This document shows, in pieces, positions 7,931 through 36,534 of a DNA stretch of 64,000 bases. Numbering within the stretch: position 1 is the stretch's first letter; the number at the start of each line of letters is the position of its first letter. Both the position numbers and the translations under genes were made by a program. The notes under the pieces are model-generated. The model had not been told where the DNA came from. It ran no database searches and saw only the letters and a list, made by a program, of their open reading frames with translations. The stretch is from Rhodocollybia butyracea (lineage: Eukaryota; Basidiomycota; Agaricomycetes; Agaricales; Omphalotaceae), in assembly GCA_015501585.1 (NCBI GenBank), contig JADNRY010000182.1:1-64000 (forward strand), in the 5' to 3' direction.

Positions 7931-8560
7931 TAGTACGACAACAGGACTCATACCTGCCATGCCCTTGGCGATGGCCCACACTCGCAAGTCAAGTCAAACG
8001 ACGCCGACGTCCTCAATATCCTCAGAATCATTGAGACATTCAAACGTTGCTGCAATAGCAGGTGGAATTACCGGCGGAATATGTCTGCTGTTCATATTTG
8101 GGCTACCACCGAGTCCGACAGCGCCGAATGAGGGCTGGTAAGATTGAAGGCACGAGTTTTGAACTGCACCTACTTCACCCTATGAGCTCGGTATCACTTG
8201 CAACCAGTCAAATCCATGGTTCCCAGGTCGATTCTACCGCTGCCGTAAGTATCCTTTCTCCTTGTCAATTGATGGGTCTGATTCTTTTTTGCCATATACT
8301 TATTCAAGTCTGCTTCAACGACAAGGTCCACTAACACTAGCATCAGGAAACCTCCTATGCGGATGCAGAATAGTAGTGCACTGGCAGAATCTCTTCACAG
8401 TGGAAGGGAGGGTTCCGAGCGCGAAGAAATCAGCCAGCTACGAAGTAACCTGGAGAGTTTACAGCATGAAATTTGATCGCAACTTCTGCTGCCAACTTAT
8501 AAGGACGCCGTGTAATATTCTCATTCAAGTTGTACTTATGATGTATGAGCTATCTACTAG

Positions 8561-9309
8561 TTAACCAGAAACTTCCTGAACTTCATCCGGAATGTACTTA
8601 AGCATGCGATTTTGGCAAATTTGCTGTCTGATTATAAGCATATTTGAGGTATGTACCAAAATCTGCCCTCCTACTGTCTTAAGTTAGTGTCTCTCAGACT
8701 ACAAATAAAATAAAATATTGAAGTACTTCAAGGCAAAGAGGTAGAAAGTACATCTGACGCAGACTAGTACCTATAAAGTATGCTACAGTTGAAGATCATT
8801 TGCTTGCTTCCATCGTCACAGCTAAATTCAAGATCCTTGGCCGGGTGGAGGGCCCAAAGCGATGATCATAATTAAAGGTACATATCTAATGGGATTTACT
8901 ATTACATATATAAGCAGCTCATCATTAAACTTCCTAGAGATAATACTACGTAGTTATAGATCTTTGCAAAAAGCAGCGTACGAGGACCAAAAAGGCACTC
9001 CGCTATTCCGCTTAGGCAAAGTTTGGCCTAGAGCCCACTGACAAAGTTGTACAGGAACATACGCGGAAAGTAAGAGGTTCTGCGATGATCGAGGCACTAT
9101 ATCTGACAGTCTCCACGGAAAGCCGCCCACTACATCCTTCTCGGTCCAAGTCATATGCACTGCAGTGATGATCATCGTTGCGAACTACTAGTACTTGCAT
9201 GACGGAACTGTGATGGTGTTTGTACTTTGATTACTAGTCGGACCACCCGTTTTTCCTTATGTGTTGGCCTTACACATAGCTCTGTCTCTCTCTGTCTCCG
9301 ATACATTCT
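8561..9309. other. No recognisable gene
   Basis: AT-rich spacer between the broken membrane-protein gene and its paralogue fragment. Short frames only, no repeats of note. Confidence 0.35.
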
Positions 9310-12699: not shown

Positions 12700-13617
12700 A
12701 TGGATGAAAAACGGTAGGTCTCTCCCTTGCTTTTGCTTTCTTTTGAGGACTCGTCAGGTATTTATCGTTGATCCATCTTGCTCAACTGATGTTGTTCTAG
12801 AACTTGGAGCTGCGACGTCGTAGCTAATTGTCCATTTGAAAGCTTCAATTCGCGCCTTAGCTATCACAAAACAGAATATCATAGTCCACATCGTTATGTT
12901 CACTGTGAGTAAAGAACTCTATGGTTTGACAATCGTATTGATTGACATCTATGCAGACAACGGTGAACAGGTCTCCATATCTAGAGGGCCTGACGGTAAA
13001 CTTAAATGCCCATGTGGTGAACCCAAACACGCGAGATATAGCTGCGAAAGAATACGACTCATGTGCAAAGTCAGCAAACATCCACCCCCCGATTCAATCC
13101 GATGGAACGATTGGGATGAAGTTAGCTTTCGTAACCGTCCTCGGTTTCGTCGTCAAAGCAAGTCAACTGCCCCGACGACTTCAGCTGACACTAGCGCTAT
13201 TGGACCTCATCGCACCATTCGTACAAGGAGTTCAACCAAAAATTCCATTCCTAAAATTGAAGAACGTGATACCAAGTTTAGGCTCGTCGAAGAAGTAAGC
13301 TCGATTTCGACAGGAGAGTTGAGTGATAGGAAAGAATTCTTACTGGTGATTTATTCTCGAGCCTTAATCAGTGTCGATAACTTAATTCTTCATCCATCAC
13401 ACAGAAGAAATTGGCAGACGAAAAAGCAGAGGCTTGTGTATTGGATAAAGCAATTAAGGACGCGGTAAGTTTCTTGTTCTTTCGATTCCATCCAGAATAC
13501 ACTCATATATCATGGCTCTAGGTCGAGATAAAAGCGCTTGAATCGCAAATCAAGACCATGAGCGCAAAAAACAAGGCAAAAAGACAAAAGTTAGAGACTC
13601 TGATCAGTCAATCTTGA
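12700..13617 (+). CDS. Zinc-binding/coiled-coil small protein, array copy 1, 203 aa
   Basis: Five exons (12700-12713, 12801-12904, 12957-13294, 13405-13464, 13522-13617) join in phase with GT-AG introns. The protein opens with a possible zinc finger, C9-x5-C15-x11-H27-x4-H32, preceded by W7. Next is a conserved block, GPDGKLKCPCGEPKHARY, ending in a further Cys. A basic, Ser/Thr-rich linker follows, then a short coiled coil (KKLADEKAEA, VEIKALESQIK). I do not recognise the family. Zinc binding is inferred from Cys/His spacing; DNA or RNA binding is only a guess from the basic linker. It is the most divergent member of the array. Confidence 0.75.
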
Positions 13618-13989
13618 ACATACTCCGCTAGTACCTTGTAAAGTCGCTTCGTGATTCCTCTTGGCCTGTTGCTTGTACCTACCCCATCTAACTTCCAAAC
13701 TGTTGTAAAGTATCATTAATCTGTGTATGCCGTTATGTACATTAGATATGCATCACTCCTCAAGTTTGTCACGTATCTGCCGGCCCTTAACACGTTGTTC
13801 ACGGGCATCTGAATCCTGATTGTCACGGTTACTTGGTTTACATACAAAAATAAGAAGCCCGATTTCTTCGCCGGCCTCAGCCCCCCACTCAGCGTATTCG
13901 TGATTCCTCCTAGTCGTCTCGAAATTAATTCTTGTTCAAAAAATCTGAGCGCCTTTCCTTCTGGGCCAGTGGTTCTACTCAACTTATTT

Positions 13990-14964
13990 ATGGCTGTAGC
14001 TACAGAAGAGTAGGTTTACTGCTTTTCTTACATTAATGCGTATATTTCCGCTCAACCATCGCTACAGAACATGGACTTGCGACGTCGTGCCAAACTGCCC
14101 TCTCGAAAAATTCAGTACTAGCTCCAAGTTGCATAGGACAGACTACCACAGCTTACAGAGGTCCATCCAGTGTTAGTTAACCTCTTACTTTCGGTGGACT
14201 CTGGCAATTGATATACATTTTACCAACATTTGTTCTTACAGATGCCGGCGAAACGGTCCTGATTCGTAGACTCGGAGGTCAGGACGGTAAATTGGAATGC
14301 CCCTGTGGAGAACCAAAGCACGCACGCTACAATTATCAGAAGATATCGAACATGTGTAGCCTCAGGACTGGGCATCCGTCTGCCGATGAGACCAAATACA
14401 ACGACTGGACTGAGGACACCTATTCACAACGCCCCAGACGAATACGAACCAAGTCAACTACTCCCGCAGGTTCAAACTCTGATTCCACTACAAGCACCTC
14501 TCCTCCCCCTACTTCGAAACGAAAATCCGATGAACAACCTTCATCTTCCAGAAACATTCGTCCAAAGCTCCAGAGTAATGACATCATTGAATGTGTTCCA
14601 AACACGGTGAGTTCGGCGGGGGTGAGTTCGGCGGGGGTGAGTTTGGCGGGAGGTGGTAAGAGCATATTAAATGCTTTGCAGGTACTAAGTTTTGGATACC
14701 TTGTTCAATTTAATACACTGACCCCTCAATCTTTACAGGATAAACTCGCGGTGTTGAAGAAAGAAAGTGACAGATTGGATAAAAAGCTTGAGAAGAAGAA
14801 GAAGGAAGAGGTGAGTTTTTGTGACTTCTATGTATATGCTCACTTCCTATTCTCATTCGATTCTCTAGGCCGAGATAAGAAATCTAGAGTCGCAAATCGA
14901 GGATTTGAAGGCAGAAATTGATGCAAAACGACAGCAAATTAATGCTTATCGATTCAGGGAGTGA
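13990..14964 (+). CDS. Zinc-binding/coiled-coil small protein, array copy 2, 243 aa
   Basis: Five exons (13990-14009, 14068-14171, 14242-14681, 14739-14810, 14869-14964) close in phase. Exon 2 is 104 bases and exon 5 is 96 bases in both this copy and copy 1, so the gene structure is conserved. The finger is C11-x5-C17-x11-H29-x4-H34, then GKLECPCGEPKHARY and SNMC. The linker is basic and Ser/Pro-rich (RRIRTKSTTP, SKRKSDEQPSSS). It also holds a small tandem repeat, VSSAGVSSAGVSLAGG, encoded by 15-base units at 14608-14652. The C-terminus is a charged coiled coil (KLAVLKKESDRLDKKLEKK, then AEIRNLESQIEDLKAEID). It has all motifs and no lesion, so it is the best reference member. Confidence 0.8.
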
Positions 14965-15139
14965 ATGTTTGAACGTTTGAACCCTCTATATTCTATTACC
15001 ATATTACCATCCTAAGTATCGCAAATTCCGAGTCCACATTGATCAGTGTTTTCATGGCATATAGCGCCCGAGTCTAGTAGTAGTACATATAACGAGAAGT
15101 ATCACATCATAGTCTGCACCAAGATACACTTACATATCA

Positions 15140-15230
15140 CGACTCCAGGTTGAATCGCAAATCATGACCATAAGGCAAAAAGACAAAAGTCAGAGACTCT
15201 GCTCCGCTAGTACCTTATAATGTCCCCTCT
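15140..15230 (+). repeat. Footprint of the last exon of a copy-1-like gene
   Basis: Bases here (GGTTGAATCGCAAATCATGACC and the following AAGACAAAAGTCAGAGACTC, then CCGCTAGTACCTTA) repeat the last exon and 3' flank of copy 1 at 13522-13640 with small deletions. It marks the left part of a duplicated unit that carried the tail of one gene together with the next complete gene. Confidence 0.75.
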
Positions 15231-15524
15231 TAACCTGTTGCTTGTACCTACCAGATCTTACTTCCAAACTGTTGTACATCTATGCTGTTATGTACATTAG
15301 ATGCTAACTCGTTCAAGTTTGTTATCACACGTACCTGCCGGCCCTTAACACGAGCGTCTGATTGTTACTTACATAAAATACATTTTCTTCGCCCATCTCA
15401 ATCACCCACTCAGTGTATTCGTGATTTTTCTGGTCGTCTCGAAATCAATTCTTGTTCAAAAAATCTCAGCGCCTTTCCTTGAATTCTGGGCCAGTCGCTC
15501 TACTCAACCAGTCTGATCTTATTT

Positions 15525-16460
15525 ATGGCTGTAGCTAAAGAAGGGTAGGTTTATCGCTTTTCTTAGAATGTTAATGCATATATTTCCGTTCAAACATTGT
15601 TTCAGAACCTGGACCTGCAACGTCATACCAAACTACCCTTACGAAAAATTCAGTATTAGCCTAGTTTTGCATAAGTCGGAGTACCACACCCCGTCACGGT
15701 CCATCAAGTGTTAGTTAATCTTTTACTTTCGGTGGACTCTGGCGATTGATATGCTTTTTACTGACATTTGTTCTTACAGATGCCGGCGAAACGGTCCAGA
15801 TTCGTAGAGGGCCAGATGGTAAACTGGAATGCCCCTGCGGAGAACCAAAGCACGCACGCTACAATTATCAGAAGATATCGAACATGTGTAGCCTCAGGAC
15901 TGGGCATCCGCCTGCCGATGCGACGAAATGGAATGACTGGACCGAGTACACTTATTCACATCGCTCCAAACGAATACGAACCAAGTCAATTACTCCTGCA
16001 AGCAGCGCAGCAGCAAGCGCAAACTCTGATTCCACAAACACGTCCACTCCTACTTCGAAACGGAGATCCAATGAACAGCCTTCATGTTCTAGAAACATCC
16101 GTCCAAAGCTCGAGAATGATAACAACATCACGAGTTCGGCGGGAGGTCACGGTAGTACGAACAAATTAAACACTTTGCAGGTAAGTTTTGGATGCCTCGT
16201 TCGATTTTGATACACTAACCCCTCAATCTTTACAGTATAAACTCGCGATGTTGAAGAGAGAAAGTGATAAATTGGATAAAGAGCTCGAGAATAAGAAGAA
16301 GGAAGAGGTGAGTTTCGTAATTTCTAAGTATATGCTCACTTCCTATTCTCATTCGATTCTCCAGGCCGAAATAAGAGCACTAGAATCGCAAATCGAGGAT
16401 ATGGAGGCGGAGATTAATGCAAAACGACAGCAAATTGATGCTTATCGATTCGGGGAGTAG
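15525..16460 (+). CDS. Zinc-binding/coiled-coil small protein, array copy 3, 230 aa
   Basis: Five exons (15525-15544, 15606-15709, 15780-16180, 16236-16307, 16365-16460) close in phase. It is very similar to copy 2, including MAVA at the start, GKLECPCGEPKHARY and the coiled coil AEIRALESQIEDMEAEIN. The second Cys of the N-terminal motif is replaced by Tyr (N-Y-P instead of N-C-P), so a classical C2H2 finger cannot form unless another residue serves. The linker has an Ala/Ser stretch in place of the repeat seen in copy 2. No stop or frameshift is present. Confidence 0.78.
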
Positions 16461-16599
16461 AACGTTGAAACCCTGTATATTTTATTACCACAAATTCCGA
16501 GTCTGCACTGATTATTGTTTTCATAGCCTATGTGCCTAATAATACATATAACGTAAAATAACACATTATAGTCTGCACCAAGGCGCACTTACATATCAA

Positions 16600-16665
16600 C
16601 TTGAAGGTTGAATCGCAAATCAAGACCATAGTCGCAAAAAAACAAGGCAAAAATGATGCTAAAAC
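16600..16665 (+). repeat. Second footprint of the copy-1-like last exon
   Basis: GGTTGAATCGCAAATCAAGACC followed by GTCGCAAAAAAACAAGGCAAAAA again repeats the terminal exon of copy 1. It lies about 140 bases after copy 3, the same relative place as the footprint after copy 2. Confidence 0.7.
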
Positions 16666-16844
16666 TAGTAATTTCGAGTGCCTTCTTTCCCGCCCGTGCT
16701 GATTGTATTTGACTTCAAGAAACCCATTTTGTCCCCCTGTCTCAGTCCCCTAGTCGATCTCTGCTCGGCGCCTCGAAATTAATTGTTGTCAAAAAATCCC
16801 ATTTTCCTTCTAGGCCAGTGACTCTAATCAGTCTAGTCTTATTT

Positions 16845-17301
16845 ATGGCTAGTATAGCTACAGAACGGTAGGTTTACCGAACATTAACGCGTATTTTACC
16901 CCACTCAACCATTGTTTCAGAACATGGACTTGCAACGTCATGCCAAACTTCCCTCACGAAAAGTTCAGTACTGGCCTAGCTTTTCATAGGTCAGACTACC
17001 ACACCACATCACGGTCCATCAAATGTCAGTCAGGCTCTGCCAGAGATTGATATACTTCTCACCAACATTTGTTCTTGCAGATGCTAACGAAACGATCCGT
17101 ATTCGTAGAGGACCTGATGGTAAATTGGAATGCCCATGTGGAGAACCAAAACACGCACGCTACTGTTACCGGAAGATACTGAACATGTGTAGCCTGAGCT
17201 CTGGGCATCCGTCTGCCGATGCGGCCAAATGGAATGACTGGACCGAGTCACCGCGCTTTTACTTGTACTTCAGCCTGACTGAAGTAGACCGTGAAACATA
17301 A
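16845..17301 (+). pseudogene. Zinc-binding/coiled-coil small protein, array copy 4, truncated
   Basis: Exons 16845-16867, 16921-17024 and the start of exon 3 (17081 on) match copies 2 and 3, with the same 104-base second exon. The second Cys of the finger is Phe (N-F-P). GKLECPCGEPKHARY and ILNMC are kept. Just after NDWTES (about 17252) the similarity stops abruptly. Unrelated sequence supplies about 16 residues and a stop at 17299-17301, so the linker and coiled coil are lost. It is either a broken gene or one that makes a short finger-only protein. Confidence 0.7.
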
Positions 17302-19340
17302 TAATTCCTTGTCTTTTCGAAACAATCACTTTCGGCCGTGTCTTGAAAAAGGATATTTCAGATTACCAAAGAAAGCAAATCTTTCGGCGATTGTGAATGA
17401 TATTCCTTCAGTTTGGCCGAATATGATGCCGAAATATCCTATTTCAGACAATAACCGAAAACAATTATTTCCTTCAAGTTTGGAAAGCTTCTGCTTCACT
17501 CTGGCAATGAAAGTTATTGCTTCCTTTTACCTTTCAAGTGGTTCCTGAAAGGTTGCCTTTCCCAGCCGCGTACGCTCAGCTGCAGAGTAGCGTACGCTGT
17601 CTCATCAGGGGTAGTATTGAGACGAGATCGTCTTGGTTCAAACTTTTTCTTAGGCCATTGAGTTCAGTGTCATGGCAAAAAATGCAACGATAAGACAGCT
17701 GCCAACAGCTGCCAAGGAGGAGAGAAGAGTGACGACGGTTGGACGAAGGCTGAGAAGAGTGATGACGGTTAGACGAAGGCTCAGAAAAGTAGAGCAGCCT
17801 GGAAATTGCAGTTGAACAATATCATTTAAGCTGCGCGAGAAATCTAGGTAGACTGTCCATTGTCCATTGTATACCTATGCTAGAGCCAACTGTCTTCAGT
17901 AAAGTTCGAGTTGAAGCCAAAAAATCAGGGTCGGCTAGAATTGCAATTTGCCACGCTCCATCTCATCCATCTCAAGTTCTCCTTTACATTTTTTGTCTTT
18001 TCTTGTCTTTTACGATGTCGGTCGGCACTGTTCCAATGTACTTTTGGCAGGCAATTACTAGGTCTAAAGGTGGATGAGGCAGGCGCGAAGGACTATTTGC
18101 TGTCTCATAGTACGTTTACCGTGGTTTGACCTACAAGTGCTTCTGACCTTCTGAAACTCCTAGCTGCTACTCTACTGAACCAAAGGTGTAACTCCTCTGG
18201 ACACTTGAATATCATCCTCCAACGACAGTTCCGGTCGCGATTTACCTCGCTCTTTCGAGTTCTTCAACCAAAAACTTGCACTCGAAAAAGGTTGCCTTAC
18301 CAAAACGCCCTCATTGATCTGCGCAAACATCGATTTTCTGCTTCGTGAAAAAGTTGCTTAAATGAACCAACATCCATGCGCAACCAGCAATTTTGACTTA
18401 CCTGTAAACGGACAATTTCAGCCCTGGTTAGCGCAATTGACATTCCTGTAATATCACAGAAAAATCCAGTGCTGTGTCCTAAAGCCAGAACAAGTCCACA
18501 ATCTTGTGCTCAAGACTATGCCCGCTGGTGCGCGCAACCTTTAATTACCGCGGCTGCTACCCCAGGAAGCATATGTTATACTGCGCTCACGAAATGTCCA
18601 GTTCTTATATTTACCAAATTAGGACTAAATGGTGAGGTCAGCGAAACAGCGAAACAGAACGCCGTGGGCTGCACCGCAGATCCTCAGATCCTGGCGTTAC
18701 TAGAGTGGTGCTTGGACCGCCAAAGCATTGCTAGTTAGTCAGATAAGGTGTGCAGATTATCAATAGTGAGGTCTTTATACAAGCTCACCGCAGAGATATA
18801 GAGTGCTCTGTGATAAATTTACCGATACAATGTTCGAACCTGAACCATCTTCAGATTCATCTGTTCTCTGGATTCGTTTAGATGAGACCATAGAACCACA
18901 TATAAGGCGGCATAGGATGCCAGTCATAGTTGAGAGTTTGTCTTTGCATCTTGTATTATACTAACATTGGGTTAGTGTCTGACCTTTGATACACTACGAA
19001 GGCTTTGGTTTTGTATTTGACCATTATGCCTTCATTATATACCTGGTTCTCCCCAGTCGCTGCAAGTGTAGCTCTTCTTGACTATGAGCAAAGTGTTAAG
19101 CATATTGCCGCTTCTTGATGGCGCTCGTTCGCAGAATCAGTCCAAAGAAACAGAGATTTTTTTTTTTGCAAAGTACTTACTGATTTTGAAGGTTCTCTTT
19201 TGATTCGTTTGCAACCTCAGATAACTCGCGATACTAGGTTTGTTCAGGTATGGATCAAGGCTTTGATTTTTAAAATTGCTCACGCTCACGGACTGTTTCT
19301 TCCACTCTTTTACTCTCGTAGGCCTTAGTTTTCAATCTCT
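17302..19340. other. No recognisable gene between the array and the Zn2Cys6-GATA gene
   Basis: 17302-17560 is foreign sequence that replaced the end of array copy 4. At 17725-17790 a roughly 33-base unit (GTGACGACGGTTGGACGAAGG and a variant) is tandemly repeated. The rest has only short frames. The last part holds the promoter of the gene at 19341. Confidence 0.4.
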
Positions 19341-21827
19341 ATGTCTTTTCAGACAACCATCGCTCTTACTGCTGGTGCAGTTCCTGCTACCACTGAACGT
19401 TCGTTAATTCTGAAAACGGTGGAAAGTTTACAGATCTGACTATATCAGTAGATCTTGGGCTTCAAGCTCGACATAGACAAGCAGGTTGTACCATGTCTAT
19501 CAGCCCTCTCTTTACTGACCACTTATTATTATTATTTTTTTTCAAAAAGGTCGTATTGTGACCTCTGCTTGTGATCGCTGTTGGGGAAAAAAGCGCAAAT
19601 GTGAAATGATCAAAGGACGACCTGATATTTGCAGGGGTTGCAGACGCAACAAAGCTGGTGAATACTGTCGTACTCCTTGGATCCCTTATTTGAGCTGTTC
19701 TAGGTCCTTGCACATTCAACAGACCTCCTTCTCAACCTGCAACAATCGTTCTAGATGAAGATAGGTTTGTGCGGACAACCCCTAGCTCCAGTGATTACCT
19801 AGAGGCTTCACCAAGGTTGTGTAAGCGGTGCCATGATAAGCCCTGTATATGTCTTTGTGATACCCGTGTACGCATTTCTCTTATTGCCTGCTGTCTCCTA
19901 CATTTCTTTTCGATTTGTAGACTAAATGGAAGCTGTTGTCTGCGGCGGATTCGGGTAGGCAATGCTTGAACTGCGGAGTAAAACATACCACACAATGGAG
20001 GCGCGGGCCAAATAACCAAGTCAACTGCAATAAGTGTGGGTTGTATTACTTCTACGTATGTGTTTCGTGCTAGACTGTTAAGCCGTTTTTTCTGAGATCT
20101 CATCTAATAGCATGGACGCCCTCGTGCCTATCACAGCGCCCAGGGACGAATAGATTCCAAATCTTTGAGTATGCATGTACCATGAAATTTTCTTTCGCCC
20201 TTAATTGTCCACAGAAAGCTCCAAAATTTATACCAATAAAATTAGTATTGGTACGTCTTTTACACTCTATTTTGCACTCAATTTTCCCTTCGCTTGATCT
20301 GATCTTGGGGCTTTCTACACTCGGTCATCAGTCCCCAATGAATTCAACCAACCTGTAATGTCTTCTCCTCAGCCAATATCTGCTGGCTCTGAGCAAACAG
20401 TAATACCTTGTTTTGCATACTTAATTTTAAATTTTAATCGCTGATTCAACAATTTCTTGGTAGAACATCTATGAATCCCAGATGTCAACTCTCAGTGGCA
20501 GGTTCAAGACTCTCGCGCATAATCCCGCCTTTGCCTATGGCTATGCTTACAATAAATCTTTTGACTTTGCCAACATTGTAGGTTCAAAGACTCTGTTTGA
20601 GAAACGTGCAATCGGTTATAACTTCTCTTATTAGACAACTATGGATACCATAGGTACCAATCAAGATGTTGGATCGTCAACGTACTACTCGTCCTCCAAT
20701 GCGGGAAGCATAGATCTCTGTATTACCCCATATACGGTGGTGAGTGTTGGAGAGCAATACGACTATTGCTTTGAATTTAACAACTTCTTTGTAGAATGAG
20801 GACAAATCCAGAGCATCAACTCTCAGCACCGGTCTGGCCTATAATTCTGCTTTCGCCTATAGTAACAAGTTGGACTACACATACAATAACCCTTGCGATG
20901 CTGCGTCACCATATTACTCATCCCTCAACACAAGTATGAATCACTCCACTAACACTGTACGTGAAAATGTTTCACACAAACCTGTCCTTACAACTTTGAT
21001 TTTAGATGGCTACGGATTTTAACGTGGGATCATCGGCAAAAACAATGTACTCAGAGTACCTGGCTGATACAAGGGGCATTAGTAGAGTACGTTCCTATAC
21101 TTAAAATGCGCAGCCGCCGCCCATAACCTATTTTCAGATGGCTGCAAGTGCCTGTGGGACAGGATCATCAGTGACGACGTACTACTCTGACGATAGGTGC
21201 TCAGATTATTCTAATGTTGTACGTTACAATATGTGAAAATGTGCAACCGCTTACAAGCTGTTTCTAGATCGCTACGGGTACCAATGACTTAGCGAGAGCA
21301 TCTTCATTCCCCTTTGATGTGAGGAACATAAGTTACAAGAGCAAAAGCTCTGCTAATCCTGTCAGTTAAAATACTCGAGACTCAGCGACTTCTTAAAACG
21401 TGTTTTAGATGGCGACAATCATCAACTATCCCGATATAGTGCACTCCCCTGGTCACAGTAATTCTATTTACACTCCCATAGCTTCAAACCGCTTGGCCCC
21501 CAGTCATAGTAATTCTCTTTATGCTCAGGTAATTGCCAATTCAATGGCTGGGTACAGGTGAAAATATATAGAGACACGGGGGAAGCTAAAAGGCATAGTG
21601 ACACCAAAAAATTGACGAGTAAAGTTGCTGTAATATTAAGATACTACAAAGCCTTCAGTCCAAGAATCAATTTACATTCAATACTATACCGTACAGTTAC
21701 AAGAGTATCGAGACTCGCACCGCCCCGCGAGAGGTTAGGTGGACTAAGTATGCGGTCTCCTGTATCGGAGTACCCAATTCCTAGCTCGGACCGTCAGCTC
21801 GTGGCCCCGGGCGTCTATCAAATCTAA
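19341..21827 (+). CDS. Zn2Cys6 + GATA zinc finger protein with repeated exons, 553 aa, 15 exons
   Basis: Probable nuclear transcription regulator. Exons: 19341-19398, 19550-19666, 19704-19867, 19921-20055, 20111-20168, 20215-20250, 20332-20399, 20464-20577, 20635-20739, 20795-20956, 21006-21086, 21138-21218, 21268-21360, 21409-21528, 21558-21827. All 14 introns are GT-AG and every phase closes. A Zn2Cys6 cluster is seen at residues 27-59 (C-x2-C-x6-C-x9-C-x2-C-x8-C). A Cys-rich knot, LCKRCHDKPCICLC, lies at 97-110. A GATA finger is seen at 128-152 (C-x2-C-x17-C-x2-C, TTQWRRGPN, CNKCGLYY), continued by HGRPR. Residues 213-464 are Ser/Thr/Tyr/Asn-rich and made of phase-0 exons repeating MAT-, YYS- and AFAY-type motifs. 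If exon 5 is not spliced at 20168 it ends at a TGA (20183-20185), giving a 182-aa form. Targets are unknown. Confidence 0.75.
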
Positions 21828-21927
21828 GCTAGATCGATAGTGACAACTCCAATCAAATTTCGGATTCATCTATTTAATTTCCCTGCGGCATCCCCATCTA
21901 ACATCAAGCACATTCAGCGTATGAAGA

Positions 21928-22815
21928 GAATGGGAAAGCTACGCACATCGGGAGCTATCGTGCCACAAACACTCTCGTCATTTATCCGTAGGCTGTGAAA
22001 ATTGCACGGAATCTGGGCTAAGTTATGGCATTCAATTTGCCGATCCAGCTTCTTCATTCAAAATCTACACTCAGATTTCCAAGATTCCTGGTGATTGCGA
22101 TGGTCGCACATTCATTGAGGTGAGCCTGGTAAGGGCTTTCACTTTAGACGTTGTCACAAAGAGGAGATTTTGATTGCTCAACCACCATGTATCCAAAGTT
22201 CCTCAACGCTCTGTTTTTCAAAGTTGCAAAGGAGCACATTGAGTCCATTGGTAAGCCTATGGGTTTGTATTACAGCTAATCTTTATTCAAAGACCTATCA
22301 GAACTGGCTGAGTACAATACGTTCGAGAAAACCAGGAGTAAATCTTACTCTTTACCGACAAGCCTCTGCCTTCCAAAGCATTCCGTTCCGCAGCCACCAT
22401 CTCCGCTCTCGGATATTCTGGAGCATACACATCCACTTTTCAAGTATCCTCTTCATCGGCCGTCGATTGTATGTAAGCGGAATGGTGGAGGTCGTTGGAA
22501 ACCCGCAGAGTATCCTGAAGACCCCGATACCTTGATTGCTGTCAAGAGCCAGAAGGGTACAGTCATATTGAAACGATCATGGGAGGTCAAAATGGAAGCG
22601 GAAGAAGAAGAAGAAAGGCGAAGGGAAAAGGAAGATATTGAGGGTATTGTGATAATTGACGGTGGTCAGTATGACAGTTTCTCCATCCTTGCGTGTTCCC
22701 ACTCTTTGCAGATTTCAAGATTCGACAAAAGCCCATCCGTCCAGGATGTCTATCCACTGAGCAAGAAATTGACGCTTGTTTGGCTAAGCTAGGGTATGCT
22801 TTGTCCACATTCTGA
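21928..22815 (+). CDS. Unrecognised multi-exon gene, 5' end not resolved
   Basis: Four coding blocks (from about 21928 to 22119, 22148-22250, 22293-22661, 22712-22815) join in phase by GT-AG introns to a TGA. The first block has a Cys/His-rich start, SCHKHSRHLSVGCENC, which could bind metal, followed by SGLSYGIQFADPASSFKIY. The middle is proline-rich (PQPPSPLSDILEHTHP) with an acidic/basic helix (EEEEERRREKED). The end is CLSTEQEIDACLAKLGY. A stop lies just upstream in the first frame (21922-21924), so at least one 5' exon is missing from this model. I know no family that fits. It starts only about 100 bases after the Zn2Cys6-GATA gene on the same strand and could in principle be an extension of it. 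Confidence 0.5.
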
Positions 22816-24599
22816 GGCTACATCTTCCGGCACACTGCGTCGAGGATGAGAAAGAATGTTGGTATTGGAAGTACATTAGATGAACAAGATTCCAAGCACG
22901 GCCTGCATCTACATAATCTAAAGTACTTAATGCGAAAGACTTACTCTTGATAAAATAAGGATTACAGTGGATTGTCAAAAAAATTGTAACGTGCTACGAT
23001 TATTGAAGCTGGCACCCTTTCACATAACTCCCATGGGTATCGCTTAAATGGGTCAACTTGATCAATGGGAGTGGTTTTTGACGATGAATATGGAAAATGG
23101 TACACTGTCACACCTCGATCATCTGTGTACCACCTGCTACTTCTTCAGTAGAATGTAGTACCAAATAGTACCAACTGTTTCCAAGAAGAGTATTCAATTT
23201 CTCTGACTACACGTAACCGTATCCCGAATACACATACACAGCACGGTTGCATATACACACTATCTTCACTGCCCTCCTAAAGGTCTACTCGTTTTCATCC
23301 GTTTCGCCTATCCTTCATTGATTGCTGAGTATAATTCGTAATAAGGTGGCTCATATGGGTGAATGCCGAGTCCAGGATGTTGCAACAATGTCTGGGACTG
23401 CGACGGCAGTGGCAAATACGGCGTTTGCAGTGAAAAATAAAGCTGAAAGCAACAATAATGAGCGAGAGTGTAGGAGCAGGATAGAAGACGAACACTCACA
23501 TATTGACCTCACCTCTACTACGCTTTGTAACCCGAGTTTTTTGTCCCTTTCGTTTGGAAGTAACGCGTTCCTTTGGAAAAGAAACAGACGCCATCGGTAG
23601 GATAAATCCCATCTCACTAGTCATTTTATGAAGTTCCTGCTAACCGAATAGGTATGAGAAAATCAGACAACATTCTGGAATAAGAATCGACGATTAGTTA
23701 CCTTAAGAGATTGAGAATTGTACCAATCCAAGAAATTACTCCATTCAAGCAATTACTCCTTTTAGCATAGCGGTCATGCGCGGTGTGCGCGGTTTGCCTT
23801 AATTAGAACAGCTCGTCATATCTCTTGCTTACCAGCTGTAGTCTTGCCATGCTACACCAAGTTTTAGCATAGGCCCAAAGTCCCCTCAGAAAGGACGGCT
23901 TTAGGCTTATTATCCTTAGGTCAGCCGCGTGCGAGAGTTTTACTACAGTACCACCCTCCATAACTCCTACATACCAGTCTGGACCCATGTTACCCGTAGA
24001 TCCTGTCAAAAATACATGATGTTAGGGTACGTATAGATAACGTCTTGAGGAACTTCTTTCGCCACAGCCCAGCGAAGTGATTTGCTCACTATCCGAAACC
24101 TCAGCATCGTCGAAACTAGACTGAAATGACTATGAGTATTCCGATTATAGGGCGAGTTTTCCAGTACTAACTTCGTTCAACAGAATATCCACGATTGTAT
24201 ACCTGGAATGCTTTGTTAACCTTCTTCGTTAGTGTAGGCAAAAACATAGGCTTACAGACTGTTGATCTCAGGCTCGTAAAAAGCAATTGCCACTTGACTT
24301 GCGACAGTTCCCTTGCCTACACAAGGTAGTGGTCTGTCAAGTGAAGTGATCAGAATGAAGGTCTTGTTTGCTTCCTCGACTTTTGGCCTATCAGGTACAA
24401 GGTAGTGAGCTTCGGTTCATCAGATATATAATAAATACAAAGGTACCATAGCAAGTTTCGAAATGCGGCGACTTGGGCGGAGTCGTTTAATCGACTTGAT
24501 GGCTTGACGATGGCTTCACAAGAAGTCCAGGCTGGAATCTGTAGTCTGCTTCCGTATTCAGATTGGCAAAGAGTTCAAAGAGTGGACAGAACATACCAG
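22816..24599. other. No supported gene; faint coding traces on minus
   Basis: Minus-strand pieces such as VSKSLRWAVAKEVPQDVIY (near 24080) and TGSTGNMGPDWYVGVMEGG (near 23990) look protein-like but lie in different frames and do not assemble. I cannot assign a family. Confidence 0.3.
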
Positions 24600-25020
24600 A
24601 AATTTAACCATCTCCCTGAGGTACCCTCATTGGGGCTTCCTGGCCTCGGAGCTGCACCAGGTTTAGGAACCTCGAATCTCAAACCCTCTCCCCAAATATC
24701 GCCTGGGACCAAAGGAATGTCTGGATGTGCAGAAGAAATTGTAAGTACTGGCGGGATACCATTAGGCCATGAAGGATATACTTGCTATCAGATCCAGCTT
24801 CAATAAAAGGTGATATAGAAGCATTCAATATTTTGAATCTGGAAGCATCCGCGCAGCTCCGAGTCGTCGACGACGACGTTTGGTCCGAATGAGGAGTGAC
24901 ACTAGGCATATCATAATCAAAACAGTAGCACCAATGGCACCGCCAACGATTGCAGGTGTGTTCGATTTATGCGATGCAAGTGGTACCATCTGGAGAGCAG
25001 CATAATGCTCCACTCTTCAT
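24600..25020 (-). pseudogene. Membrane-anchor fragment of a single-pass protein
   Basis: From 25013 the minus strand encodes SHKSNTPAIVGGAIGAT, then a hydrophobic helix and a stop-transfer run, KRRRRR. This is the same layout as the membrane part of the family at 4299-8560 (SN.AAIAGGITGGI). A frameshift leads to SRFKILNASISPF and a tail to about 24680. No extracellular domain precedes it, because MFS remnants begin directly upstream. Fragment only. Confidence 0.45.
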
Positions 25021-25044
25021 GGACTTTCAGCAACGGGAGGCGCT

Positions 25045-27046
25045 TTAGCAACAGAAGGTGAAGGTTTTCTTTATAATCCTGAGGTTCTTAATGAACATGG
25101 CTGTGATGAGGGCAAGCCCTGCAACAGGAACCCCAATGATAAACACAATACGTAGAGGATGCGCGTATGCCTCTACGACACCAGGGATCTGCGACGGTAG
25201 GAGATTGGTATAAATAGCTACCGGGGATTCCTTCACAATGGTTGGATTTGCGTCTGGAGCAAATATGAGCAAGTACTTGCTCAACGAGTCCGAGACCGAC
25301 TGTACCACCGAAGAATTGGGAGAAGGACGCCATATGGTTGCTTGACCGAGGAGCTTGGGGTTGTCTCTGAACTCGACTCTAGTGTGGGGAGCTCAGTTCG
25401 AGAAATCGCAACGGGGAAGGAAAAAGACTTACTATATTGCGAGAAGCGCATTCTGCATACCCATACCGGTACCAATTCTAGCAAGGATTTGGAAACCAAT
25501 GAGCCGCGCAGACAATGTTGATGGGGTGAGGGTGAAAAAAAGTCCAGAACCAATCGCAAGAAAAATCGGGGACCCTACCAGCTGCATTTCTCAATTAATG
25601 AAAATAAAAATAGGTGAACGATTGAGAAACGATTGACCGTGTATTGAGTCAGCCGGCGCAAGCTCCACCTCCAAATACGGCTGATTATGGGAGATGGACA
25701 TATCTGATCCATTCTCAATAATCTGCTTTGGAAACTCTTTGTGGTTGAGTTGTTTGGTATTATCAGGTTGCAATCTGTGTTCCTTGGCTTTCCAACTATC
25801 TGGCCTGCACGCATGACAGTTATTACAACACCGAGCAGGAGGTTGATTCCTGAGTTGGTGGCTGACTGGTGCCTCACGGCCTGATAGAGGATGGGAACAG
25901 GAATGCGCAAGTGAGGCAAAATCAACCACGGATACGAATGAGACTTACATACAAAAACAGTAGAAAGGAGAAACGGATAAGGAATCCGTAGATGAGGATA
26001 GCATACCGATCGCGATGTCAGTAAGAGTACAACCGCTTAAGCACGAAAAAATGTACACTGAACGAGACTTAAAGATCTGCACAGGGACCATCGACTTTGG
26101 ACTGTAGTAAATCTCCCATGCGACGAACGCAATTCCACACACTTCCGCGAAGACAAAAGACTGGAATGAGTAACAGAATAAGAAGTCTTGCAGGCGAGTT
26201 TTGAAGGAGAAGACAAACAATTATGACCCCTTGTCATTCCATGGCTTTGTATTCCCTCCCCATTGAAGCGCAAGTATATCGGCAGATTCTTTATATACAA
26301 GACATGTCACTGCAGCAGCGATCAGGGCTGCACCAAGATAATCAAGTTGCATGACCTGGCGGAGGATGTACTTCGGTGAACGTTTGGTAGGATCTGAAAT
26401 CAAAGGAGGCGCCGGCTTCCAAGAGGAAGGTAACAGCAACTAGAGAAGCGCCACTACTATAACGAAAAAGCACCGGAAGCATCAGAATTATTAGTCTATA
26501 TCTCAATCTGCCCAAGTAAGACCAAAAAAGTACCATCGCCACGTAACCTGAAATGACCAGTCAGCATACGCGGTCAGTGAACGCTCCCCCTACGCACGCA
26601 GATGAGAATGTAAACGGAGAAGCCTCATCTAGTCGAGCTTACCGATCAAAGGCCCTATGACAGACGCAAGAGCGAAAACGGCGCCAAAGGGCAAACAAAC
26701 GCGCTTGGTCCTCGAGCCTTGTGCTTTGAGATGTGATTTGCAGTATTTCAACGACTATTATCAGTCAGTTCAGTGCCGAGTCAACAACACCATGGAACAT
26801 ACATATCCCAGACGCTCCTACGCCAGAAACTGTGCGACCTGCAATGAGCTGACCGACATTCTGTGCAACCTCGCAAACCAAAGACCCGAGCTCAAAGATC
26901 ACGATGGCGGAAATGAAAACCCGCTTGGCAGGAAATATGCGGAGAAGTTGGCCGTACAATAAGAGGAAGACGGTTTGTGTGAGGATAAAAGATGTGGCGA
27001 TCCACCCTTGGAGGGGGAATGAGTCAAAATCGGAGGCGATACAGGG
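25045..27046 (-). pseudogene. MFS drug/efflux transporter remnant (DHA14-like)
   Basis: Pieces of a 14-helix fungal major facilitator protein lie in order on the minus strand. TALPCIASDFDSFPLQGW and IFPAKRVFISAIVIFELGS (helices 1-2) come first, then AGRTVSGVGASG, GAVFALASVIGPLIG, GAFTDR-VTWRWYFF across an intron, VTCLV and LALQWGGNTKPWNDKG. YQAVRHQSATNSGINLL, ARLIGFQILARIGTGMGMQ and PGVVEAYAHPLRIVFI near the C-terminus follow. The frame changes several times (for example inside VAVTFLL/KPAPPL near 26430), and some parts after helix 7 are garbled. It would export small molecules at the plasma membrane if intact. Here it is a pseudogene, and its first helix is replaced by an Spt5-like fragment. 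Confidence 0.65.
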
Positions 27047-27049
27047 TAA

Positions 27050-27263
27050 CGCGGTCGCTGTTTATTGTGATCGTACTTGTCCCCGAGTATCGTGCGCATT
27101 TCGGTTTCGAGCACAATAAGAGACATATCGTTCGAAGTGGGGAAGCTCCGTAACAGATCCCAAAGGTGTCGAAGGTGTCATAGACTCTTGAGTACCCAAT
27201 ACGGGTCCAGACCGGGTATTTTCGAAGGAATCGTGAGTGGAAGGTGGCGGGGATATTTTTTTT

Positions 27264-27294
<31 letters not shown>

Positions 27295-27571
27295 GGGGGG
27301 GTGGCGAAGGAAGTAGACGGTTGGGAAATATGGCCAGTCGCAGAAGAGGACGAAGGAGGGTCATATCTATCGAAGATGTGCTGGAATAGAGGGACGTCGT
27401 CTGGGGTGGCAGGAGGACAAATGTCGAGTTTACGGGAGGAGGAAGAGCTGTATGTCGCGTCGTCGTCGATGAAACCAATCAAGTCGTCGTCCTCTAGGTC
27501 TTCATCTTCCCCGTCTCCATCGTCGTTAAAAAACAACTGGTATGATAATTGTGAGTACGAGGTTTTAACCA
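27050..27571 (-). pseudogene. Spt5-like N-terminal fragment 1
   Basis: Minus-strand translation gives an acidic stretch (DGDGEDEDLEDDDLIGFIDDD), SSRKLDICPP, VPLFQHIFDRYD and, after a proline run, LETEMRTILGDKYDH. These follow the acidic leader of the Spt5-like gene at 29374-33112 motif by motif. The proline/lysine run is encoded by a C28A18 homopolymer pair. The fragment stops where MFS sequence begins. Confidence 0.6.
27256..27301. repeat. T18G28 homopolymer pair
   Basis: Eighteen T are followed directly by twenty-eight G on the plus strand. The G tract can form quadruplexes and is prone to length error. It sits inside Spt5-like fragment 1, where it would be read as prolines and lysines. 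Confidence 0.95.
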
Positions 27572-27586
27572 ACTTATAATAGACTT

Positions 27587-28210
27587 ACGATTAAAACAGA
27601 GGACATGCCGTCCTGAACATCAAAGAGGATGCCGTTATCCTGGACGACGTCGCTGAGGGTGTTGCGTTGATGAAGCTCGCAGGCATAGAAAGAGTGAAAA
27701 CTTTCGAGGTGCCTCATCGAGAACGGAGATCACGCAATGTGGCCTTTCAAGATGGCACCAGCACAATTATCGTAGGGAGTGACCATGGAAACGTATATGC
27801 ATTTGACCGTCGAACCGGTGTGAAAGACTGGGTGCAGTCAATTTCGGTACGTCGTAGCTGTTGTATGACCGTAGCGCATGAATATTGATGGAATGGCGTA
27901 GACCGTTGAGCTGGACGGTGTTCCTCTGATTATCATGGGCCGTTCAGGCGAGAATATTGGCAAGACCGAAATTCAGGTATGGGAAAAGGTCGTTGCAGCG
28001 CCTGCTGGCAGGACCGCAGCAAGAACGGAGGAAGGTAGGTGGTTGTTGCTGATAGTCTTATCTTGCATATTAGTATTTGAGAATATCTTGGTGAGTTCGA
28101 TTCCAGTCTTGCAAGTGCTGTTTGTGACGCCGATTTTAGAAGATTCCGGTGTTGAACTACTGCCAGACCACAATTATGAGCGTGATAGAGCGATATGTAC
28201 ATTGAGACGT
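27587..28210 (+). pseudogene. WD40-like protein fragment, C-terminal half
   Basis: Blocks seen are HAVLNIKEDAVILDDVAEG, GIERVKTFEVP, RSRNVAFQDG, STIIVGSDHGNVYAFDRRTG and, after an intron (27847-27901), VELDGVPLIIMGRSGE. The GS-x-H-G-x-V-x-x-F-D pattern is a WD/beta-propeller repeat. The order resembles a mushroom WD40-like family whose N-terminal half is seen separately at 62640-63130. A possible further intron leads to a hydrophobic stretch near 28070-28140. No start is present; it begins at an acceptor-like site 16 bases from the divergent Spt5-like fragment. Confidence 0.5.
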
Positions 28211-28346
28211 ACCTGAGTATTCTTTATTTTCTTGTGCGACTTGGCCGTCGTTGCGTTGCTCAGTCGGGACTTTACACCTAGTTAAAGAAAAGTTGTTAAT
28301 CTCATGTTATTTTTGCTTCATTTTTTCACTTAGATACTAAAGACTT

Positions 28347-28398
28347 AACTTTCGTCGCATCGTCTTCATGAGAGTCGAAGACGAAGCGACGGAAAGTT
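28347..28398. repeat. Short inverted repeat (hairpin)
   Basis: AACTTTCGTCGC...TCGTCTTC on the left pairs with GAAGACGAAGCGACGGAAAGTT on the right around a short loop. Possibly a terminator or a fold-back remnant. Confidence 0.6.
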
Positions 28399-28920
28399 GT
28401 GCACGTGCTGACGCTTGCAAGTTACGCACCAGCGCTTGGATTCTGGACCGCAAAAGGAAAATCGTTTCATTGTTGACGGGGCAATGATCCCAACACTTTT
28501 GAAATCGGTTGCGATTAATAAACACTGGCCTCAAGCTGTAGCATTTGGTCAGACGGGCGTGCGAGGCCTTGAGTTATGAACTTTTGGAAGAGAGGATGGT
28601 GTTATGTTTGGAGCTTATGCTTGCGAAGTAGCTGTTCGAAAGCGGGCAGAAAACGCCCCATCTTTTTCCTGTTTACTTTCGCTTCCTCGGAGTTGGGGTT
28701 GTTACGAGGGTTCTGTTTCTAAGGTGAACTACTGGAGTGGCACTTTCCATCGTAATTGGTAGTGAGTTAGAGTTGCATTGTTGTGAGTGTTATGGTGGTG
28801 AGTGGTAAGAGCGAAAGTACAAGTCTGAAAACAAGCCTGGTCAGTGTTGAACGGGAAAATCTCCTGGTGAACAATGGACCCACAATGAACTTGTCATTTT
28901 AAGTATTATTCGCAGTTTTG

Positions 28921-29123
28921 GACTGTCGTTTCTGGTTGTTTCCCAATGAATATAGTTTAACGTCATTGCGGACGCTGGCCCTTTTTGCAGATCGGTGCAA
29001 GTTCATCAGCGGAAAATCTCGGTGCATGGACTGGCGTTTCTGGTTTGCTCATTGTTTCCTAATAAATATAGTTTAACGTCATTGCGGACGCTGGCCCTTT
29101 TCGCAGATCGATGCATGTTCATT
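28921..29123. repeat. Direct tandem duplication, period about 108 bases
   Basis: GACTG.CGTTTCTGGTT...ATATAGTTTAACGTCATTGCGGACGCTGGCCCTTTT.GCAGATCG.TGCA.GTTCAT occurs twice. The core TTTAACGTCATTGCGGACGC also occurs inverted at about 39669-39688, just outside the Ngaro element. The flanking parts of 28211-29373 show no gene. Confidence 0.8.
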
Positions 29124-29373
29124 CAGTTCTATAGCTTCTGCTCTTATTCCAGAAAAAGAGCCCTACAAACATAAGTAACATTACGTTGCTACCATAACAG
29201 ACCAAAGTACACAACCAAATAAAAAGTTTACACATATATATTTACAGTTAGTCCTTGCTCCTAGATGAACCGGAGACAGCTGGGGTAAACGAAATAAATC
29301 AGACATCTACTAAGTCTATGAAATGGTCCACAAACTACTTGCAATCTACGGCCGCGACACACCAGTATTCCAC

Positions 29374-32300
29374 TCACCACGATTTCTCGCACAAGTCCTT
29401 CCGAATCCCAGACACCTTCCTGTTCCCTTCGTTCATTTGAGCCGATGTTTCGTGGATCACAACGAGGTCCCACCTAGGAGCGTTGAATACAGTCCCATTT
29501 GCCTCAAGCTCTGTGTCCCACTTCGCCTTATTCCACTGAATTTTGACAGGTATGAGACGATAATCATATTGCTTCGACAGTCCAACCCATTTTCCAACGG
29601 AACGACCGATTTTGCCGACATGGCGTCCACGAACCACAATGTACAACTTCCTGGCCTTCTCAGGGTTCTCTGCGATGGTGGTATTCGCCTGCTTGATCTG
29701 ACTGAAGGGAATGATATCTCCCACGTTCGCTCGTGTAGTTCGCTTCCCTTCGCGTGCCACTATTAACCCGGCAAGGGTAGTGAGATAAACGCGTTGTTCG
29801 GGCATATTCCTTGCGTCGTTTCTGACTACAATGTCAAGGCCTTGAAGAGCTTCGCACAGCACACGTGTCGCGAGCCAGTGGCCAGAAGCGTCGGTATTGG
29901 CGCCGGTAGGGGAGGGAGCATGAATAAGGGCGCTTGATGAAGTAGGCGCAGACGCTGTGTTGGCTCGCGGTTCCCCAACACTTCCATCTGGCGCGATCGA
30001 ATATTCATCATATCGCGGCGTCATTCCTCCTGCCTCACTAGATGTATGTAGAGGAGTCATAGCCGACGGATCCCAAGCCCCCCCGTCGCGTATCGGTGCA
30101 TTGCTGTCAGAACGAGGGGTCATCCCTCCTGTGTGATTGGAAGGGGGCTGCCAGGTCCAGTATCGGTATAAGGCGGGAGTTTCCCCCAAGCTGGAAGGGT
30201 GAGGAGGAGTTCTCGACGACGGGTCCCAGGCGCTCCCGTCACCGGAAGCTGAGGATGATTGAAGGTTTGGAGTCACGTCTCGCCCCTGTGCAGCCACTAA
30301 CGCCGCTAATGATTTGGCTGTCTGGGTATCGGTTGCAGCGTGGTTTCTTTGCAGCTCAACCTTCATTAGATGCAGCCTCCACTGCTCATGTTTTCGTTCT
30401 TCATCTTCCTCCCGACGCCGCCTCTCGTCCTCCTCGTTATACATTGTGACTTGCTCCTGAACCTTACGTCTATAGCCGACGTGGAGCTCTGCAACGGTGT
30501 ATTCAGGCTTGTACCCGTCCTTGAAAGACCAGAAGCCTTGAGGATAGAAGCAATCGCCATCGTCGTGTAGGAATTTGTGCGATCTATAGATTTATGATTA
30601 GTATACCAACTATTGAAACAAGTAGCACACATACTGTGCATGTCGAACCCAATGGTAATCTACCCATTGGAACACCGTTTGTGTTGATATCGTCTCATAT
30701 CGCACATGCACTTCTAAGCCACTAGACTTCTTGTCATTCCTCCGCACCCCCTGCACTCGAGCGAATTCTCCCCGTTTAACATTTCCCGGCTCCAAAACAA
30801 TAACATGTATACCTATCCACGGAGAGGCTCCGGTATAAGTTTCACTGCGTTTGGCGAGTTCATTATCTGAGCTGAGTGGCGAATTCACGGCTTTCCGCAG
30901 AACATCCTCTGTGATGGTTGGGATTGCCAATACCTTCGTCTCGCGCAAGCAATTTATATGACATTCAGCCTTAAAAGGGTAGAAGAATTAATAGAACACG
31001 CACATAGAAATATTTCACTTACTGAATTCTGCGCATCGATCTGGACTGTTGCCATACCATGCCCTTCATCCAATGCAGTGACAAAACCGGTCTGCCCGTC
31101 GAACGCGTGAGCAGAACACTCTGGACCCACTTTCCTTGATCGCCGGATAGTGCCTGTGGCTCCAGGAAGCAGCTCGACCATCATATGTACAGCTAGCTTC
31201 CGGCGCAATCGGGTCTTTGGGACTGACTGCGTGTCGGAATTGAGTAGTACGACGCAAGAGACGACGTCGACCTTCTGAATCACTCCTTCGCCAATCCAGT
31301 CCTCGGCAGTGTCCATACTCGAGGGAAGCAACTCTACCCAGGCGTTTGCTCTGATCTCGACTGTTTCATTCTCGAAAAATTGCCAGGATGATAATGGCGG
31401 GATCATACGAATGACATGCTCATTGGAGAGGGCTGGATGTTCGGACTCGAGGAAGAGATTGAGTTCCTCGGAGGTAATACTAGTGGCAGGCTCGATATGC
31501 TTCTTGCCAACGAGACACATTCTCAAGCTGGACTGGATCCACAGTTGCTCTCCAACTATCGCAAATTTTCGTTTATCGTCGTGGCCGCAAGGTTTCGGAT
31601 CGCACATCGGACAGGCCACTCTGAGAGATACCGTACCGTCGCTATCCTCGACGTATTGGTTGATCTGAGCGCGAGACAACAGACTCAGGGGTGGCCGCAC
31701 GTTCTTCATCGAATCCAAGGTCCCGCTCGAAAGATTCTTGCGCGGTATCAAATAGGCAGTACGCTGGTGCTTCTCGATTGACAACCAACCTGGTGGAATG
31801 ACTGGAAAAAGTACTGCAATGTCATGACGGTGTGGTCCGTTTTGGATAACTCGTACCCAAGTTCCATAGGGCAAAAACCGGTCACGATGTCATGGTAAAT
31901 CTGAATCAGGAATGAGGGAGTGTAACGGAGGAAAGTGTGGGCCATGAGGATAAACGAAATATGCCAGGCTTTTGAGGTAGTCGAGAAGCGCACTGTTGTC
32001 GGGCAACATACTTCGGACTTGTAGATAAACATGACCGGAGACAGGGGACGATAGGTATTTTTTGACCAGATCTTGCCGGTTTGTTGCTCTGAGGGTATTG
32101 ATGATATTCGACTCTGATCCATACTAATGTACTCTATTGTCAACAAAAATTTACTAAGTGAAAAACCATTAACATACCATACACCGTACGCGATACCATC
32201 GCCAATCAATGTCTTCGTCGTGATAGTGCATTCGAATCGCATTTCTTGTGTCGTTGAGTGCATCTTCCTCTGTTCGAGCGTTTCGTGAAACCAAAGCCCC

Positions 32301-34861: not shown

Positions 34862-34903
34862 TCTCCCTGCTCATTCTTCACACATCTTCATATCAATTGT
34901 TTT

Positions 34904-36529: not shown

Positions 36530-36534
36530 ATCAC

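Follow-up and report, generated by a model that had tools for sequence, protein, structure and literature searches.

A predicted Zn2Cys6–GATA protein encoded within a copied block with a transposon-like left end in Rhodocollybia butyracea

Inspection of a 64,000-nucleotide stretch of the Rhodocollybia butyracea genome (hereafter the window; positions 1–64000 of contig JADNRY010000182.1, or C475, in an assembly of 95.6 Mb and 1381 contigs) revealed a single spliced gene on the forward strand (19341..21561) that is predicted to encode both a Zn2Cys6 cluster and a GATA finger. The gene lies within a 12,066-bp block (17249..29314, forward strand) that is copied elsewhere in the genome and that begins with a sequence resembling the terminal repeats of EnSpm/CACTA transposons. 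We find both motifs, a coherent gene structure, a coding sequence under constraint, and repeated blocks whose left end is fixed; the transposon-like ends of the copied block are more surprising than the domain pair. It is nearly certain that the two domains belong to one predicted protein, and very probable that the gene resides in a mobile or recently duplicated lineage with this left end. The reading that we favor, with a probability of roughly one half, is that the gene encodes an element-borne dual zinc DNA-binding protein that would serve the element rather than a host pathway.

In the gene model, an ATG at 19341 opens a frame of 15 exons encoding 487 amino acids plus a stop, with introns that are all GT-AG, 35–81 nt in length, and consistent in phase. 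This bears out the fifteen-exon frame proposed in a first-pass annotation of the sequence, and the model was checked against a diverged second copy of the gene described below. Exons 1 (19341..19398) and 2 (19434..19484) precede exon 3 (19550..19657), which encodes the bulk of the Zn2Cys6 cluster; exon 4 (19704..19867) contributes the last cluster Cys, a linker, and a Cys/His-rich knot; exon 5 (19921..20055) encodes the GATA finger; and exon 6 (20111..20168) encodes the basic tail of the finger (HGRPRA...). Exon 7 (20215..20250), which has no separate counterpart in the second copy, and exon 8 (20332..20399) lead to exon 9 (20464..20577), the first of a run of seven phase-0 exons that encode a Ser/Thr/Tyr/Asn-rich tail and continue with exons 10 (20635..20736), 11 (20795..20956), 12 (21006..21086), 13 (21138..21218), 14 (21268..21360), and 15 (21409..21561). 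The splice donor after exon 3 (GTGAAT at 19658) is common to the window gene and the second copy and gives the reading ...NKAGPCTF at the sixth cluster Cys, which is also present in the public R. butyracea gene model BDP27DRAFT_1328108 (hereafter P0001; 434 aa). P0001 joins both zinc domains and differs from the 487-residue model in lacking six residues in exon 2, in having one additional Val, and in terminating at a TAA within intron 14, so that the last exon is unused. The first-pass annotation had extended the frame to 553 residues and an end at 21827, but the last exon that this needs (21562–21827) was rejected, as similarity to the second copy reaches the TGA at 21559–21561 and then stops. 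Because the C-terminal motif encoded by exon 15 (SLYAQVIANSMAxY followed by the stop) is kept both in the second copy and in a scrap on contig C1094, where it reads NSLYVQVLANSMAEYK, and because conservation ceases there, 21561 is the most likely end of the coding sequence.

The Zn2Cys6 cluster (19570..19711, forward strand; residues 44–75) is interrupted by the intron at 19658–19703 and has the spacing C-x2-C-x6-C-x9-C-x2-C-x7-C; the six-Cys consensus C-x2-C-x6-C-x5-12-C-x2-C-x6-9-C is matched, with x9 and x7 spacers, by the window gene and the second copy alike. The first-pass annotation had placed the same pattern at residues 27–59; the pattern stands, but its last Cys appears to be wrong, since the earlier numbering, we infer, implies another splice donor and a last Cys in GEYC. 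The GATA finger has, as in the first reading, a 17-residue loop (C-x2-C-x17-C-x2-C; 19963..20037, forward strand, residues 142–166). On the spliced product, both domains score above their Pfam cut-offs, with 21.3 bits against 21 for Zn_clus (PF00172, residues 43–81, E 3e-4; 21.5 bits in P0001) and 36.6 bits against 26.8 for GATA (PF00320, residues 142–174, E 3.3e-9), and no other Pfam domain was found in the 487-residue protein at E ≤ 1. When the first 226 residues were compared with solved structures, the 16 matches at E ≤ 1 were GATA proteins without exception (best GATA-3, 4hc7, E 1.4e-15), and no Zn2Cys6 chain was among them. Of 100,000 shuffles of the residues of the window protein, one had the Zn2Cys6 spacing, 148 had the GATA spacing, and none had both; the corresponding counts for the second copy were 4, 269, and 2. 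The Cys-rich knot of the first-pass annotation can be described more fully as a Cys/His-rich stretch, C-x2-C-H-x3-C-x-C-x-C (19820..19858, forward strand; residues 112–124), which has no Pfam match.

With the GATA factors that have a 17-residue loop (fungal AreA and animal GATA-3), the window protein shares the C-x2-C-x17-C-x2-C spacing, WRR, CNxCGLYY, and a basic tail, but it has one finger, has K for A in CNAC, and is unlike them in the rest of the protein. With the Zn2Cys6 proteins of the Gal4 class, it shares the six-Cys spacing along with a KKRK basic stretch, a Pro before the fourth Cys, and CTF at the last Cys, which are typical features of that class. Unlike the Gal4-class regulators, it has no fungal-specific regulatory (MHR) domain among its Pfam matches, and its tail is of low complexity and built of repeated exons. 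It is plausible that the gene product is a DNA-binding regulator.

Judged by sequence only, the protein is of dual specificity, combining in a single chain DNA-binding domains that belong to two classes. The first-pass annotation knew of no described protein with both classes, but a 'GATA+Zn cluster' class of dual-specificity factors appears in Table 3 of Shelest 2017 (PMC5415576) for 5 of 191 fungal genomes, none of them with more than one such protein, and the pair is thus rare but already listed. As far as that table describes them, these factors and the window protein have in common one predicted fungal protein with Zn2Cys6 and GATA, compared here by class; what differs is that the R. butyracea proteins form a small family in one genome that is tied to a transposon-like end. 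In the portion of the same source that treats Cmr1/Pig1, these regulators also combine two zinc DNA-binding classes in one fungal protein, both functional in vivo for Cmr1, but the partner of the Zn cluster is C2H2, not GATA. Among the literature matches listed, judged by titles and the starts of abstracts, there was no report of a Zn2Cys6–GATA protein beyond PMC5415576. Protein searches, which depend on shared five-residue words and similar length and may therefore miss distant relatives, placed the Zn2Cys6–GATA family only in R. butyracea (2 of 6, 1 of 1, and 2 of 7 of the matches listed); the five other proteins found in these searches have the GATA domain but, at E ≤ 0.01, lack a Zn_clus match.

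A DNA search of the genome recovered a near-identical copy of the gene on contig C1005 and the diverged second copy on C29, C112, C452, and C1093 (66–72% identity over the longer pieces). The model of the second copy has 14 exons and 530 residues, is 50% identical in protein to the window gene, and has a common start and a common end with it. Intron places and phases match through the zinc region, except that window intron 6 is absent, and window exons 12 and 13 have no one-to-one partners. All ten zinc ligands are kept (six of six cluster Cys and four of four GATA Cys), and within the knot C112, C115, H116, C120, and C122 are kept and C124 is lost, leaving four of five Cys plus the His. The frames are open in three of the four block copies, as checked by translation on C29 and C112, where the genes are identical, and by base differences on C1093, where there is one coding substitution; an exon of the C452 copy contains one additional base. 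Because the second copy keeps the zinc Cys residues and the gene structure, cluster and finger can be assigned to one gene, as the first reading had supposed; the frame is kept along with the introns between the two motifs, and P0001 joins them as well. The public model of the second copy, P0002 (BDP27DRAFT_1436915), begins mid-gene and is devoid of both zinc domains, so that the annotation hides a second Zn2Cys6–GATA gene.

Between the window type and the second copy, about 45% of synonymous sites differ. Nei–Gojobori dN/dS values were 0.80 for residues 1–36, 0.32 for the cluster, 0.46 for the linker, 0.46 for the finger, 0.97 for residues 183–225, 0.60 for the tail, and 0.60 overall. An excess of silent changes (one-sided Fisher test) was found for the cluster (p 0.015), the cluster and finger together (p 0.002), the tail (p 6e-4), and the whole sequence (p 6e-6), showing constraint on the coding sequence. 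Seven phase-0 tail exons are present in both models (exons 9–15 in the window gene), and in a comparison of 91 exon pairs, for which only those above z 3.5 are reported, exon 15 resembled the last exon of the second copy (z 29.7). Within the second copy, exon p10 resembles p11 (z 19.7) and p12 (z 8.7); window exon 10 resembles p9–p12 (z 6.4–7.8) and, like exon 11 (z 8.1 against p11 and 6.4 against exon 9), is of the repeat type; and exon 14 resembles p13 (z 9.1). Exons 12 and 13 match no other tail exon above the threshold. The tail seems to change through exon duplication and divergence.

The block that carries the gene recurs at C1005:251944–263977; the two form a single alignment of 12,066 columns at 99.71% identity, with 3 substitutions, and the 32 gap columns include three within intron 2 of the gene. 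When the 64 kb window was compared with 39.8 kb of C1005 (matches of at least 200 bases at E ≤ 1e-50), similarity was confined to 17249–29314, and the flanks did not align. The blocks with the second copy start at C29:2681, C112:941, C452:3257, and C1093:5479 (minus strand); the C29 and C112 contigs end where the C452 block reaches 19378, and the C1093 block is cut by the contig end. All six blocks begin at the first base of CACCGCGCTTTTA, and their left flanks align at the junction in none of the 15 pairs, the C112–window pair having an inverted match away from the junction. Sequence to the right of 29314 recurs on C801 (100%), on C1216 (78%, from 29315), and in part on C288, which supports 29314/29315 as a junction. 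Since the assembly contains near-identical regions, such as window 27969–33749, which is 99.7% like C801, the copy numbers given here may include alleles or assembly duplicates. To the left of the block, the window is 95% like C47:168684–169545, a stretch without the terminal pattern in the genome-wide scan described below, and remains colinear further left; as the right flank of the block is unmatched on C47, an insertion polymorphism at this site is only suggested.

The left end itself is the sequence CACCGCGCTTTTACTTGTACTTCAGCCTGACTGAAGTAGAC (17249..17289, forward strand), which contains an internal palindrome and forms the common start of ten long copies. It opens a longer terminal region (17249..18220, forward strand) that is common to the second-copy blocks (81.5% to C452:3257–4222) and that occurs inverted at both ends of an element on C794 (within locus L045, C794:309500–318843, at 1575–2285 with 83% and at 8339–7463 with 76% identity). 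The ten long copies, found by searching with 17249–17848, are on C475, C1005, C1065, C1093, C112, C29, C452, C794 (two, inverted and 6.8 kb apart), and C1172. Behind seven of the ten lies the gene, which is of the window type in two cases, of the second-copy type in four, and in the seventh a broken copy on C1172 (exon 1–2 sequence at 20615–20380, a piece at 14463–14362, and a stop in exon 2). Conversely, every gene copy that has the N-terminal part (7/7) has the left end upstream, and the gene is linked to it in three diverged lineages, namely the window type, the second-copy type, and the broken C1172 copy.

Searching the genome for the terminal pattern with up to 3 mismatches gave 72 matches (39 forward and 33 reverse) and none for a reversed control. 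Inverted pairs of these termini bound miniature elements of 217–220 bp with equal 3-bp flanks, which agree in all seven loci that were processed by script (AAT, TGT, TCT, TGT, ACA, AGT, and ATT), although the fourth and fifth (L049 and L050) are apparently a single locus represented in two contigs; at an eighth locus, L052, TGT was seen by eye on both sides. The miniature elements therefore have CAC..GTG inverted repeats and 3-bp duplications, both of which count, in PMC12730594, among the features by which fungal elements are assigned to EnSpm. The 6.8 kb C794 element has the terminal repeats, but its 3-bp flanks are unequal (CGA and TGC). The blocks could also be taken for Helitrons, given right ends near CTAA and captured fragments; this reading was set aside, since miniature elements that show 3-bp duplications have the left end as their terminal inverted repeat and since the base before CACC varies, evidence that concerns the left end only.

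To the right of the gene, the block (21562..29314) is a mosaic of pieces that have relatives at other genomic locations, as judged from the matches to 22000–25500. Among the 50 matches listed for that interval, the C1005 copy is identical (100%) and the others come in pieces of 66–92% identity, resembling C610/C235, C475:111409, C452:119738, C700/C577, C1092/C1038, and others, an arrangement that may be likened to that in gene-capturing transposons. The window block and the second-copy blocks have nothing detectable in common outside the left region and the gene. In the second-copy block, broken pieces resembling fatty acid synthase (FAS_I_H 148 bits, ketoacyl-synt 28 bits) lie at C452:9578–12837 (L012:8379–9710 and L036:1433–1837 in the extracted loci). 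The last 130 bases of that block (C452:19249–19378) recur at two places each on C490 and C581, and all four recurrences share this end point to within 2 bases.

According to the reading that we favor, a single spliced gene would give rise to a nuclear-type DNA-binding protein in which a Zn2Cys6 cluster at the N-terminus is followed by a small Cys/His knot, a GATA finger with its basic tail, and a long low-complexity tail made of phase-0, partly repeated exons. The gene would be a regular constituent of a lineage of mobile DNA, with the left end as its EnSpm/CACTA-like terminal repeat and the DNA right of the gene as variable captured sequence. The usual targets are CGG-type half-sites for Zn2Cys6 clusters and GATA sites for GATA fingers; if the protein is made, the cluster and the finger could each read their respective sites and together pick composite ones, and the tail might recruit partners. 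The protein may then serve the element as a helper or regulator like TNPA, and a DNA-binding gene tied to one terminal region fits a helper or repressor that binds at element ends. TNPA itself is an unrelated protein. Its role in En/Spm, as described in the pertinent part of PMC2613891, is a precedent for a helper or repressor bound at the ends of an element. As far as those portions of the sources go, EnSpm/CACTA elements and the R. butyracea lineage share CAC..GTG ends and 3-bp duplications, here in the miniature relatives (PMC2613891, PMC12730594), and a DNA-binding gene inside the element (PMC2613891). What sets the gene-bearing block apart from EnSpm/CACTA elements is that it has neither a right terminal repeat nor a target duplication and that a partial test found no transposase.

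Several observations weigh against this reading. The window Zn_clus score is barely above its cut-off, the second copy falls below both cut-offs (17.8 against 21 and 26.3 against 26.8 bits, for its first 312 residues), and P0001 folded alone was uninformative (mean pLDDT 29). The knot gives no signal of constraint (dN/dS 1.31, silent-excess p 0.77), and the finger alone reaches only p 0.056. Three of the ten left ends (C1065 and the two on C794) have no gene. No inverted left-type repeat was found at the right end of either block type and no target duplication in either, the flanks being AGT and TCT at the window block and AGC and GTT at C1005, so that block 17249–29314 does not show the paired terminal repeats and 3-bp target duplication of an EnSpm/CACTA element. 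Pfam detected no transposase domain in 30 stop-to-stop frames (of those with at least 110 aa, nine of the ten from the window block and 10 of the 26 from the second-copy block, together with four behind other left ends and seven outside), a test that could miss a gene split by introns. There is no strong subterminal repeat array. In the 5' region of the window block (17249–19340), WGATAR sites are not in excess (4 against 4.8 expected, with as many or more in 217 of 300 shuffles), nor is CGG (29 against 29.7). In the second-copy block, GATA is in mild excess only (9 against 5.7 expected; 29 of 300 shuffles with as many or more), with 4 WGATAR against 2.1 (52 of 300 shuffles) and 20 CGG against 20.7. 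Binding of the protein to its own 5' region is thus unsupported for the window block and has at most a weak hint in the second-copy block.

That the protein serves the element is, taken by itself, somewhat short of an even chance, with host cargo and decay sharing the rest. An ordinary host dual-specificity factor that was duplicated with the block as cargo, and that would act on host promoters if on any and do nothing for the element, is an unlikely but serious alternative. Its parts are host-type fungal domains, the GATA+Zn cluster class exists in other fungi according to the table in PMC5415576, and the blocks bear other host-like fragments, including the FAS_I_H and ketoacyl-synt pieces of the second-copy block and the mosaic of the window block. 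The same left end nevertheless accompanies the gene in three diverged lineages, yet the DNA to the right shares nothing detectable between block types, and the Zn exon has six matches in the genome, each in a window-type or second-copy gene, with no unlinked donor seen. The position of the gene in repeated, transposon-ended DNA therefore makes an ordinary host regulator less likely. It is improbable that the gene is a decaying, unexpressed passenger whose open frames are recent copies not yet broken. The two window-type copies are so nearly identical that they are uninformative on constraint, and the broken copy on C1172, the scraps on C1094, and the extra exon base on C452 would all fit decay, but the frame, zinc ligands, and splice sites are kept at about 45% synonymous divergence, with an excess of silent changes. 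That a separate zinc-cluster gene and GATA gene were wrongly joined is very improbable, for although short introns are easily proposed, the second copy has the two introns that separate cluster from finger at matching positions and in the same phase, with DNA identity of about 66% over that part, and P0001 also joins both domains.

Several further features were observed in and around these loci. Immediately left of the block, window 12824–17248 contains repeated gene-like units (frames with CPCGEPKHARY) that are colinear with C47:168684–172920. Inside the C794 element (L045), the stretch 2662–2940 is nearly equal in translation to 8842–9120 just outside the right end, as if flanking sequence had been captured. 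On C1065 (C1065:8500–18499, locus L053), the left end is followed at 2768–8323 by large open frames without Pfam matches, the tested stretch of which is single copy; judged by eye, HVDGSDHF and DMHSGSS in these frames could represent a split 2-oxoglutarate oxygenase. Elsewhere in the window, the frames at 34752–37987 resemble, by eye, a gag-like region and then a tyrosine-recombinase-like protein, as in elements of the DIRS type, and two tested frames from this interval had no Pfam match. Two closely similar long open frames lie about 5 kb apart at 51174–52415 and 56309–57778, the first without a Pfam match. Scans of the window with Rfam (at gathering threshold) and ARAGORN gave no hits.

More tentatively, and we consider this an unlikely outcome, these sequences may represent an EnSpm/CACTA-like lineage in a mushroom with an accessory gene of its own, a fungal protein functionally equivalent to plant TNPA that was built from host-type Zn2Cys6 and GATA parts and an exon-repeat tail and that could be a source of host dual-specificity factors. 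The diverged copies, with their different tails and fragments, form a natural series for testing. If the gene belongs to a mobile lineage, transposons would be one route for the origin and spread of two-domain fungal regulators, and predicted dual-specificity factors need to be interpreted with caution, as some of them may belong to transposons instead of being regulators of the host.

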